Source: Actinomycetes bacterium
GTDB taxonomy: Bacteria; Actinomycetota; Acidimicrobiia; Acidimicrobiales; JAKAOS01
Direction of reading: 5' to 3'
DNA length: 45,736 bases
Assembly: GCA_021791675.1 (NCBI GenBank)
Contig: JAJYWE010000001.1
Span: 1 to 45,736 of the forward strand
Position 1 is the first letter of the stretch. The number at the start of each line of letters is the position of its first letter. Under the pieces are notes generated by a model, which searched no databases, was not told the DNA's origin, and was given only the letters and a program-made list of their open reading frames with translations. Both the position numbers and the translations under genes were made by a program. This document shows, in pieces, positions 19,458-24,662 of the stretch.

Positions 19458-19904
19458 GTGAGGGTCTCGACCAGGGGCGACTACGCGAGCCGCGCGCTCC
19501 TCTCCCTCGCCCTCCACGCCAGCGCGGAGACCCCGACGTCGGTGCAGCGGCTCGCCGAACGCACGGGGCTCCCCCAGCCCTACCTCGAGCAGATCCTCCT
19601 CGCGTGCAAGGGCGCAGGCCTCGTCCGCTCGAAGCGTGGCGTGGGGGGCGGCTACGTGCTGGCGAGCTCCCCGGAACACATCACCCTGGGCCAGATCGTC
19701 GCGGCCGTCGACGGGCCCATCACGGCCGGTGACTTCGGCGAGCCGCACCAGAACGGTGCCTGCGACCACGAGGGCCAGTGCGTTCTCCTGGCGGTGTGGT
19801 CCGAAGTGGGGGCCCACATGCGCAGCCACCTCGACTCCTTCACCCTGGCCGACATGGTCGAGCGGGCGCGGGGGAACCGCCCCGCCCGCGCGCTGCTGCA
19901 CTGA
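19458..19904 (+). CDS. Rrf2-family transcriptional regulator
   Basis: VRVSTRGDYASRALLSLALHA...VQRLAERTGLPQPYLEQILLACKGAGLVRSKRGVGGGYVLA...CDHEGQC; start inside larger track ORF. Confidence 0.9.
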   Translation: MRVSTRGDYASRALLSLALHASAETPTSVQRLAERTGLPQPYLEQILLACKGAGLVRSKRGVGGGYVLASSPEHITLGQIVAAVDGPITAGDFGEPHQNGACDHEGQCVLLAVWSEVGAHMRSHLDSFTLADMVERARGNRPARALLH

Positions 19905-22792
19905 TGCGGGAGTCGGGAGCGTCGCCGGCCGGGGAGTCGGGCGACTCGCGCCCCGTTACGGGGGAGCGCCAGGGAGGCGACCGGCCGGCGGGCTACTCGG
20001 CCCGCTTCGAGGCAGACGTCGTCCTGAGGGACGGCAAGACGGTGACGGTTCGCCCGATCCTCCCGGGGGATGCCGAGGCGATCCGCGCCCTCCACGCTCG
20101 CCTTTCGCCGGAGACCCGCTACCTCCGCTTCTTCTCCCCCCTGCCGCAGCTCTCCGAGCAGATGCTCGCCCGTTTCACACAGGTCGACTACGCCGACAGG
20201 TTCGCACTGGTGGCGCTCCTCGCGAAGGACATCATCGGCGTGGGCCGCTACGACCGCCTGCCCGGCAGCGACGAGGCGGAGGTGGCGTTCGTCGTCGACG
20301 ACGCCCACCAAGGGCGCGGGCTCGGCACCCTCCTCCTCGAGCACCTCGCCCTCGCCGCGCGCGAGGCAGGGATCAGGCGGTTCGTCGCCGAGACCCTGCC
20401 ACACAACCAGCGCATGCTCGCCGTCTTCGCGGACGCGGGGTTCGCCGAGCGGACTCGCCTCGGAGACGGGGTCGTCCACGTCGCTTTCGACATCGCGCCG
20501 ACTGCCGCGTCGGTCGCCGCCATGCACGAGCGCGAGCGCCGGAACACGATCGAGTCGGTGCGGAAGCTCCTCGCCCCCCGCTCGGTCGCGGTCGTCGGTG
20601 CGAGCCGGCGGCGGGGCACGGTCGGCCAGGTTCTCCTGCGGAACATCCTCGCCGGGCCCTTCACGGGGCCGACGTACCCGGTGCACCCGACCGCCACGTC
20701 CGTTGGCGGCGTTCGCGCCTACCCGAGCGTGCTCGACATCCCCGACGACGTGAACCTGGCCGTCGTCGCGGTGCCGGCCGAGATGGTCGAGACCGTCGCT
20801 GGCGAGTGCGCCGCCAAGGGGGTCGGCGCCCTGGTCGTGGTGAGCGCCGGTTTCGCCGAGGAAGGCGAGGCCGGGGCAGCGCGCGAACGCTCGCTCGTGC
20901 GCAGCGCGCGGCGGCACGGCATGCGCGTGCTCGGACCGGGCTCGATGGGAATCGTCAACACCGCAGCCGACGTCTCACTGAACGCGACGGTCTCGCTGCG
21001 CCCGCCCCTCGGCGGCACGGCAGCCCTGCTCGCCCAGTCGGGTGCCCTCGGGCTCGCCATCCTCGAGGAGGCCTTCGAGCGCGGCCTCGGGATCTCGACC
21101 TTCGTCTCCACAGGCAACAAGGCGGACATCTCCGGCAACGACCTCCTCCACTTCTGGGAGTCCGACCCCCAGACCGATGTCGTCCTCCTCTACCTCGAGA
21201 GTTTCGGCAACCCACGGACGTTCTCGCGGGTCGCGCGGCGAGTGTCGCGGACGAAGCCGATCGTTGCCGTCCGAGCGGGAGGCGGTCGGTCCGTCCCCGC
21301 CGGGTGGGACCCCTCACGCGCAGGCCCTGGAGGAGGCCGCCTCGGCGGCGACGGCGAAGCCGACGACACGGCCGCCGCGACGTGGGCGAGCGCCGAGGCG
21401 CTCCAGCCGAGCGAGGACGAGGCGATCGCAGCGCTGTTCCGCCACACCGGGGTCGTTCGCGTGGACACGCTCGAAGCCCTCGTGGACGTCGGTCGTACCC
21501 TTGCGACGCAGCCACTCCCCGCGGGCCGGCGGGTCGCCATCCTGTCCCACCAGGGGGGCCCGGTGGCGCTCGCCGTGGACTCCTGCCTCGGGAACGGGCT
21601 CGAGCTCGCCCGGCCGACCGGCTCCGCTCTTTCGGCAGGCTCCGATCGAGCAGAGCCGGCGGCGCGCACCAACCCGGTAACCCTTCCCCTCGACGCACCG
21701 CCGTCAGCATGGGGAGCAACGCTCGAGCGCCTGCTCGACGACCCCGACGTGGACGCCGTGCTCGCCTGCTTCGTCCCGACGGTGCTGACCGAGGCACCGC
21801 TCGCCATCGCCGAGCGCGGTGGGCAGGAGCCCGGTGGGCAGGAGCCCGGCGACCCGCGCACCGCGAGCGTGGCCCGTATCGAGGCGGTGACGCGTGCGCT
21901 CGCGCAGGGCGTGCACGCTGCGGCGCGCCGCGGGTACCGCAAACCAGTGGTCGCGAACGTGCTGACGGTCTCGGCCACCCGGCCCGCCGACGCGAGCGGG
22001 GGCCACGCTGCTCCTGCGCACGACGCCCGTGGCAGCCCCAGTAGCGCCGACTCCTCCGCCCGGGGTACAGACGTCACGGGCGGTCCCGGTCGCGCTGCGG
22101 CCGCCCGCGGCGCGCCTGCGAGCCCCCATCGCTCCGAGCCGATCCCCCCGGTGCCCGCCTACCGCTTTCCCGAGACAGCCGCGCTCGCGCTCGCCAGCCT
22201 GGCCGACTACGCGACCTGGCGTCGGCGCCAGGGCAGCGTCGTCGAGCGCCCCCGGAACTTCTCGTCCGCCGAAGCGTGCGGCCTCGTATCGCGCGCACTC
22301 GCCTCCCGCGGCGCAGGGAGCCTGCCCGCCCCCGAGGCGGCCCGTCTGGTCGCCTCGCTCGGCCTCGTCGTCGGGCCGGACCGGACGGCTGCCGCCGGCG
22401 GCCGCCCCGACCAGCTCCGGTTGGTGGGACTCCTGGTACAGGACCCCACCTATGGCCCGCTGCTCTCGCTCCAGACCGCTGCGGGCGCGCCCTCCTCCCT
22501 CCGGCGCGTCCCACCGACGCCCCACGCCGTGTGTCTCCTCCCGCTGGCAGCACCGGATGCGGCCGGCGTCCTCGAGGCCGCCGCCGGACCCGATGCCGGA
22601 AACCGCTGGCCTGGTGCGCTCGACGCGCTCGTCCGGCTCGGCCTCCTCGCCGAGGACGCACCCGAGCTCGCCCGGGGCCTCTTCTACCTCGACTGTCGCG
22701 AAGGAGACGGCCGAGCAGCGGCCACCCTCGAGCTCGCCGAGGTCAGGCCCTGGCGGACCCGACCGGAGTGGGCCCTCCGGCGGCTTCGCTGA
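19904..22792 (+). CDS. GNAT acetyltransferase fused to NDP-forming acyl-CoA synthetase-like domains (Pat-like)
   Basis: N-terminal GNAT with HQGRGLGTLLLEHL; CoA-binding domain LLAPRSVAVVGASRRRGTVGQVLLRNI; LLAQSGALGLAILEEAFERGLGISTFVSTGNKADISGNDLLHFW; ATGA overlap with the Rrf2 gene. Confidence 0.9.
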   Translation: MRESGASPAGESGDSRPVTGERQGGDRPAGYSARFEADVVLRDGKTVTVRPILPGDAEAIRALHARLSPETRYLRFFSPLPQLSEQMLARFTQVDYADRFALVALLAKDIIGVGRYDRLPGSDEAEVAFVVDDAHQGRGLGTLLLEHLALAAREAGIRRFVAETLPHNQRMLAVFADAGFAERTRLGDGVVHVAFDIAPTAASVAAMHERERRNTIESVRKLLAPRSVAVVGASRRRGTVGQVLLRNILAGPFTGPTYPVHPTATSVGGVRAYPSVLDIPDDVNLAVVAVPAEMVETVAGECAAKGVGALVVVSAGFAEEGEAGAARERSLVRSARRHGMRVLGPGSMGIVNTAADVSLNATVSLRPPLGGTAALLAQSGALGLAILEEAFERGLGISTFVSTGNKADISGNDLLHFWESDPQTDVVLLYLESFGNPRTFSRVARRVSRTKPIVAVRAGGGRSVPAGWDPSRAGPGGGRLGGDGEADDTAAATWASAEALQPSEDEAIAALFRHTGVVRVDTLEALVDVGRTLATQPLPAGRRVAILSHQGGPVALAVDSCLGNGLELARPTGSALSAGSDRAEPAARTNPVTLPLDAPPSAWGATLERLLDDPDVDAVLACFVPTVLTEAPLAIAERGGQEPGGQEPGDPRTASVARIEAVTRALAQGVHAAARRGYRKPVVANVLTVSATRPADASGGHAAPAHDARGSPSSADSSARGTDVTGGPGRAAAARGAPASPHRSEPIPPVPAYRFPETAALALASLADYATWRRRQGSVVERPRNFSSAEACGLVSRALASRGAGSLPAPEAARLVASLGLVVGPDRTAAAGGRPDQLRLVGLLVQDPTYGPLLSLQTAAGAPSSLRRVPPTPHAVCLLPLAAPDAAGVLEAAAGPDAGNRWPGALDALVRLGLLAEDAPELARGLFYLDCREGDGRAAATLELAEVRPWRTRPEWALRRLR

Positions 22793-22856: not shown

Positions 22857-23099
22857 CTACTGGCGGTAGGACTCCACGACCGCGCCCGGGCGGAGCGTCG
22901 CCTCATCCGGGTCCTGGCCCGCAGCCCGGCGCGCCCGCCGCTGGCGGAGGAGGTCCCAGCACTGGTCCAGCTGCACGGCGAGCTCCTGAATCCGCCCCGC
23001 CACTTCGTCGTCGACCTCGGAGCCGGTGTGGAGCCGCTCGAGCGCGTGCTCCTCCTCGACGAGCTCGCCGATCCTCGCCACGATCTCCTCGTCTCGCAC
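22857..23099 (-). CDS. DUF2630 family small protein
   Basis: MRDEEIVARIGELVEEEHALERLH...LAVQLDQCWDLLRQRRARRAAGQDPDEATLRPGAVVESYRQ. Confidence 0.85.
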   Translation of the reverse strand: MRDEEIVARIGELVEEEHALERLHTGSEVDDEVAGRIQELAVQLDQCWDLLRQRRARRAAGQDPDEATLRPGAVVESYRQ

Positions 23100-23171: not shown

Positions 23172-24662
23172 TCAACCCCTGCCGAGGAGGAACCGCCGCC
23201 GTCGGGAGAACGGGTCGAGCGGGCTCCCACCCGCCGTCGGCGCGCCCACCGGCCAGAGGCTACCCAGGCCGGGGCCGGCCAGGCTCGCGGGGCTCGCTTC
23301 GTTGCAGCTCACCGTTGCCGCCTCGAGCAGTTCCGCGACGCGAAGCGCCCGACCGAGATCGCCGGTGTGGACGAACGCCAACTCCGTCGGCGGCAGCTCC
23401 CCCAGCCCCGTCCCGCCCGGGTCGGCACGGGCCAGCGCCTCGGCGTCGGAGGAGAAGGTCTCCACCGCCACGAGCGGGCCGTCGATCCGCTCGGTCACGA
23501 CTCGGCTGCTCGGGTGCACCGAGGCGAGGACGGTCGGGGGGAAGAAGTATCCCGGGCCGGGGTCTGGGGCACCACCGGTCACCACGGTCGCACCCAGCCA
23601 GCGGGCGTCTTCGACACTCTCCGCGAGTGCCTCCACCGCCGCCGCCGAGCCCAGTGGGCCGAGCTCGACCCCGGGCATCGTGCCGCGGCCCCGCACCATC
23701 CCCGCCGCCCTGGCCGCCAACCGCTCGACGAAGTCCTCTGCGACACGGCCCGACACGAGGAAGCGCGTCGGCACCGCACCGGCAACCGCGGGGCTACGGA
23801 TGCGCGAGGCCACTGCAGCCTCGACGGCGAGGTCGAGGTCGGCATCGGCGAAGACGAGGAACGGGACGGGGGGGCCGCCAGAGGACACGATCCCCCCGGG
23901 CGGTACGCGCATCGATGCGAGGCCCGCCAGCGCGACCGCGCCGTCAGGGGCGACGACCTGCGCCACACCACCCCGGGCGAGCCCGGCCTCGAGGAGCGGG
24001 GGCAGCTCACCCGCGACCAGTGCCCCGAGGAGCCCACCCTCTGCGCCTGCCTCGGAGAGTGCCGCGGCGAGTGCGAGCACGGAGAGCGGCGCCGCTCCCG
24101 GCGCGATCAGCACCACCGGGCTCCCGGCCGCGAGCGCACTCCCGGCGTGGGCCGCCGCAGCAGCGAGCGGGCTCGCCGGCGGCGCCACGACGACCGTGGG
24201 ACCGATCGCGCGCGGCGCCACGAGGACGCGAGCAGCACCGTCTGCGCTGCTGCCGGTGAGCCCAGCTTGCTGTACCGCGGCGTTTCCTGCCCAGTGGAGC
24301 CACGCGGCCGCCACCCGCACCTCGCTACGCGCTTCGTCGAGCGGCTTCCCGGCCTCGAGGCTGAGCAACAGGGCGAGATCCTCTGCCCGGCCGACCACCA
24401 GCTCGGCCGCCTCGATGAGGACGGCGCCACGACGTGCCGGCGCGGCCCGACGCCAGGTTCGCGAGGCAGCCGCCGCATGCTCGATCGCGTCGGCGACGTC
24501 CACGGCTTCCGCAAGCGCGACCTGGGTCAGCGGGAGCTCGGTCGCCGGGTCGAGAACCGGGATCGTCACACCACCGGCCCCGGCCCGCCACCGCCCACCG
24601 AGGAGGAGTGCGGTCGGGCTCGCCTCGAGGAGCCCCGTCTCTCGGGCGAGGATCTCGGTCAC
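23172..24662 (-). CDS. Aldehyde dehydrogenase-fold protein, apparently catalytically degenerate
   Basis: ALDH scaffold (LLLGGRWRAG, DPATELPLTQVA, RRGAVLIEAAELV, SLEAGKPLDEAR, FLVFADADLDLAVEAAVASRIRS, GPLGSAAAVEAL, FFPPTVL) but catalytic motifs replaced. Confidence 0.82.
   Translation of the reverse strand: MTEILARETGLLEASPTALLLGGRWRAGAGGVTIPVLDPATELPLTQVALAEAVDVADAIEHAAAASRTWRRAAPARRGAVLIEAAELVVGRAEDLALLLSLEAGKPLDEARSEVRVAAAWLHWAGNAAVQQAGLTGSSADGAARVLVAPRAIGPTVVVAPPASPLAAAAAHAGSALAAGSPVVLIAPGAAPLSVLALAAALSEAGAEGGLLGALVAGELPPLLEAGLARGGVAQVVAPDGAVALAGLASMRVPPGGIVSSGGPPVPFLVFADADLDLAVEAAVASRIRSPAVAGAVPTRFLVSGRVAEDFVERLAARAAGMVRGRGTMPGVELGPLGSAAAVEALAESVEDARWLGATVVTGGAPDPGPGYFFPPTVLASVHPSSRVVTERIDGPLVAVETFSSDAEALARADPGGTGLGELPPTELAFVHTGDLGRALRVAELLEAATVSCNEASPASLAGPGLGSLWPVGAPTAGGSPLDPFSRRRRFLLGRG

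Follow-up and report, generated by a model that had tools for sequence, protein, structure and literature searches.

A probable pseudoenzyme derived from a succinate-semialdehyde dehydrogenase-like protein in an actinobacterial genome

Introduction

The best-known pseudoenzymes of the aldehyde dehydrogenase (ALDH) superfamily, such as ALDH16A1, are animal proteins. ALDH16A1 has the ALDH fold without any of the catalytic residues; it has been termed a pseudoenzyme, and a binding function has been proposed for it (PMC10650815, PMC8160307). Other proteins with this fold have been described as structural or dominant-negative, namely the ALDH-type lens crystallins and ALDH2*2, an inactive variant (PMC10650815, PMC10211241).

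Here, we describe a bacterial ALDH homologue that resembles ALDH16A1 in being an ALDH-fold protein without catalytic residues. ALDH16 proteins are larger and carry an extra C-terminal domain, while the protein described here is single-domain and similar to bacterial succinate-semialdehyde dehydrogenases (SSADHs), and it has lost the NAD site too. It also differs from the bacterial ALDH16 of Loktanella, for which classical NAD and catalytic domains are described. Lens crystallins and ALDH2*2 are near-identical to active enzymes, whereas this homologue is deeply diverged. The closest enzymes are the bacterial NAD(P)-dependent SSADHs (GabD/ALDH5-like, of the G[EQ]xC[TV]A type), with which it shares full-length homology, 37-43% identity, the core structural motifs and a DUF2630 neighbourhood, but all of their catalytic and cofactor motifs are replaced here. 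If our reading is correct, a bacterial SSADH-derived pseudoenzyme with no extra domain would allow one to study, in a simple setting, the capabilities of an ALDH scaffold deprived of its chemistry.

Results

The window analysed (45,736 nucleotides, 73% GC) opens a 155 kb contig, of which it covers the first 45.7 kb, in a draft genome of 3.1 Mb and 149 contigs. The identification of the degenerate SSADH-like ALDH homologue (23172..24662) rests on Pfam, phmmer and codon-position GC. Its reading frame, on the minus strand from 24662 to 23172, codes for 496 amino acids; the start codon is GTG, and about 12 bases before it there is a possible GGAG. The earlier note had the coordinates right but did not state the strand. 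Codon-position GC is 0.82/0.60/0.85, the same as in the neighbouring genes, and is steady along the gene. The amino acid composition is extreme, with 105 alanines, one lysine (106), one cysteine (453), one tyrosine and two asparagines (127 and 454). Cys453, the sole cysteine, adjoins the superfamily-conserved Asn454.

The protein belongs to the ALDH superfamily by descent, since its match to Pfam Aldedh (PF00171; 2.3e-67, residues 25-461, 228 bits where the cut-off is 23) spans the whole domain. SSADH structures came top in a phmmer search of solved structures (best 1.1e-61), and the closest relatives are actinobacterial SSADHs at 37-43% identity. With the NCBIfam SSADH model TIGR01780, it scores 211.6 bits, far below the 646-bit cut-off, and thus falls outside that family. 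Its branch in the tree is 1.84, against an SSADH mean of 0.26. A phylogenetic placement among the SSADHs was discarded as unusable, because the branch is extremely long and the composition deviates. Orthologues sharing the losses described below, for which the earlier note had proposed a search, were found neither in 397 genomes of the order nor in 395 of the class, nor among the matches listed in a wider scan of genome contigs. The homologue with these losses has so far been seen in one genome only.

Residues were mapped with a multiple alignment of 82 non-redundant SSADH-like proteins and 26 distant ALDHs. The segments PPASP, VVLIAP, SSGG and RSPAVAGAVPTRFLV, as read in the earlier note, align to the PWNFP, VxxKP, ELGG and G[EQ]xC regions of SSADHs, with nearly gapless flanks. 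We were able to map the four key positions named there, and the losses exceed those it listed. By pairwise and multiple alignment, the PWNFP oxyanion loop is PPASP at residues 161-165 (24168..24182, minus strand, as for all positions in this gene), where the equivalent of the oxyanion Asn169 is Ala163 and the Trp and Phe are replaced by Pro162 and Ser164. The same alignments place Ile186 at the cofactor Lys192 (24105..24107) and Gly295 at the nucleophile Cys302 (23778..23780). The general-base Glu268 corresponds to Ser261 (23880..23882) in the multiple alignment. Moreover, the FTGSTxVG cofactor loop is replaced at residues 239-247 (23922..23948), a stretch also modelled with low confidence, and Ala242 stands for Ser246 of the NAD(P) site. 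Further along the alignment, Arg392 and Asp394 occupy the positions of Glu399 and Phe401 (ERIDGP for EEIFGP; 23481..23489), and the C-terminal PFGGxKxSGxGRE region is replaced at residues 464-481 (23220..23273). The Asn, Lys and Cys are retained in the roughly 140 other homologues examined by pairwise comparison; for the Glu, the count rests on the multiple alignment because the pairwise view misaligns its loop.

None of the residues expected of an active ALDH (the equivalents of Cys302, Glu268, Asn169, Lys192, Ser246, Glu399 and Phe401) is therefore present, and the protein is homologous to enzymes while missing their conserved catalytic motifs, as is characteristic of a pseudoenzyme. The claim that every signature motif is changed holds for all catalytic and cofactor motifs but has to be narrowed to these, since the structural signatures GKP, DADLD, GxGP, GYFFxPT and GPL are kept. 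A frameshift as the cause of the altered motifs was rejected, as the flanking alignment is continuous and the frame unchanged.

The distribution of the losses was examined over 70 superfamily-conserved columns. The homologue retains 34/38 of those outside the catalytic and cofactor motifs and 10/32 of those inside (Fisher 4.6e-7, with motif spans taken from textbook ALDH motifs but after the alignment had been seen). In total it keeps 44/70, whereas no other ALDH in the set, even the most distant, keeps fewer than 59/70. Gly, Pro, Ala and Arg are the four residues with the most GC-rich codons. When columns with these residues are set aside, 11/12 are retained outside the motifs and 0/16 inside (p = 5.6e-7), a pattern that GC-driven drift leaves unexplained. 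Since W, E, K, T and N survive outside the motifs, GC-driven loss of AT-rich codons was dismissed as a complete explanation. Neutral evolution was simulated from five intact starting genes, with two GC values, five times and 5000 runs per setting. The observed inside/outside split was reached in 0/5000 runs per setting, and the frame stayed free of stops in 0-12% of runs, the upper end being at short times.

The length of the frame says less. Antisense frames overlapping the gene reach 903 and 829 amino acids, so that at 73% GC a run of 496 open codons counts as weak evidence, and we rejected it as proof of selection. The frame is open, as the earlier note had stressed, but its argument against simple decay does not stand on this observation by itself. 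The concentration of losses at catalytic and cofactor sites, the failure of neutral simulations to produce it and the intact codon-position GC suggest instead that selection acted on the fold during much of the period when the active site was lost. The location of the losses, the codon periodicity and the simulations lean towards maintenance of the gene.

The AlphaFold2 model of the protein has a pTM of 0.82 and a mean pLDDT of 79.6, and was built with an alignment of intact relatives, on which its fold retention leans. Values of pLDDT are mostly 85-97 over residues 1-130 and 301-410, and fall below 50 at residues 238-262, 292-294, 417-425 and 460-491. Foldseek retrieved SSADH crystal structures at a TM of about 0.8, as expected of an ALDH fold. 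Over segment 231-262 the pLDDT is 41-52; in an intact relative, modelled with nearly the same alignment, it is 77-92. The C-terminus of that relative is also poorly modelled because the alignment rows end short there. The model suggests an ALDH-like body in which the former cofactor and catalytic loops would be remodelled or disordered.

A partly eroded gene lies 380 bases from the homologue. It encodes a Pat-like protein with GNAT and NDP-forming acyl-CoA-ligase parts (19778-22792, plus strand), in which column comparison gave 119/131 conserved columns over residues 75-600 and 6/22 over residues 825-900. Compared with five relatives, the ATP-grasp core is short by about 60 residues. The window also contains an intact ALDH (40431/40584-41948, plus strand; Pfam 8.9e-133), whose MPWNFP, ELG and GQSC motifs bear out its use as an internal control. 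It is the best of six other ALDH matches in the genome, and loss of the activity of the degenerate homologue therefore need not be costly.

Discussion

We consider it likely that the homologue is a pseudoenzyme, that is, a former NAD(P)-dependent SSADH-type enzyme that lost catalysis and ordinary NAD binding, was retained as a folded ALDH-like protein and is now non-catalytic. The losses fall largely at catalytic and cofactor sites, equally conserved structural sites survive, and neutral simulation fails to match this, all of which agrees with the pseudoenzyme reading in the earlier note. The starting point would have been a dehydrogenase of the succinate-semialdehyde type, dependent on NAD(P) and probably identical with the lineage's SSADH linked to DUF2630. 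Aldehyde oxidation and ordinary NAD binding would have been lost with the ALDH-like fold retained, and the former cofactor and active-site cleft may have been remodelled into Ala/Gly/Pro-rich loops. Most simply, the protein would now be a subunit with a binding or scaffolding role, its partner being another protein or a small ligand. The binding, regulatory or partner role that had been suggested is thus possible; partner binding in particular is proposed solely by analogy with ALDH16A1 (PMC10650815, PMC8160307). More tentatively, a single-domain bacterial protein of the ALDH fold could have taken on a new, non-enzymatic role as a partner or ligand-binding protein, perhaps together with the DUF2630 protein, once catalysis and NAD binding had been totally lost.

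The gene may instead be decaying, its function gone, with the gene and part of its neighbourhood under relaxed or no selection and the frame open by chance. Open frames are cheap at this GC content, as the antisense frames and the stop-free neutral runs illustrate, the branch is very long, and the gene is present in one genome only. Moreover, the ATP-grasp erosion in the adjacent Pat-like gene keeps local relaxation as a rival, and part of the pattern may be due to it. Neutral loss, however, would strike structural and catalytic sites equally, whereas the two classes differ here, and no simulation gave the observed split. The 496 codons have no frameshift or stop, codon-position GC is intact throughout, and the DUF2630 gene next door is well conserved; we regard decay as unlikely. 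A new chemistry on the ALDH fold, which the earlier note had raised, could use Cys453, which sits next to the conserved Asn454, as a nucleophile in a displaced position, and displaced catalytic residues do occur in other pseudoenzymes (PMC10211241). But the nucleophile is not alone in being lost: the oxyanion Asn, general base, cofactor Lys, GS loop, Glu399 and Phe401 have disappeared too. The cleft loops are modelled at low confidence, and no relative speaks for conservation of Cys453. With every catalytic role absent at once, this proposal is very improbable. An assembly or sequencing artefact might be suspected in a metagenome-derived draft of 149 contigs. Random error should have introduced frameshifts, whereas the frame and codon periodicity are kept at about 60% amino acid divergence on a 155 kb contig, and such an origin is hardly credible.

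The ancestor of the pseudoenzyme proposed here was probably a working SSADH at the same place. Directly downstream, on the same strand, lies a well conserved DUF2630 gene (22857..23099, minus strand; Pfam PF10944, 1.6e-28). At six other distinct loci a DUF2630 gene adjoins an intact SSADH gene: three in the same order (G338, G322 and G105), one in Acidimicrobiaceae (L118) and two in Marmoricola. This supports descent in place from a linked SSADH, although the tree does not place the protein. Gene order and strand vary among these loci, DUF2630 being mostly upstream elsewhere and downstream here, and within the taxonomic order most DUF2630 genes have no SSADH beside them. For the Pat, HisPhos, ROK and MFS neighbours, no conserved case of synteny with SSADHs elsewhere was found. 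A hairpin between the ALDH homologue and DUF2630 genes was rejected, being no better than in shuffled sequence. A literature search on DUF2630, including its pairing with SSADH genes, found no paper, and the recurrent gene pairing gives a clue to what this unstudied family does. The actinobacterial loci noted for the DUF2630-SSADH adjacency are L047, L049, L055, L073, L074 and L118.
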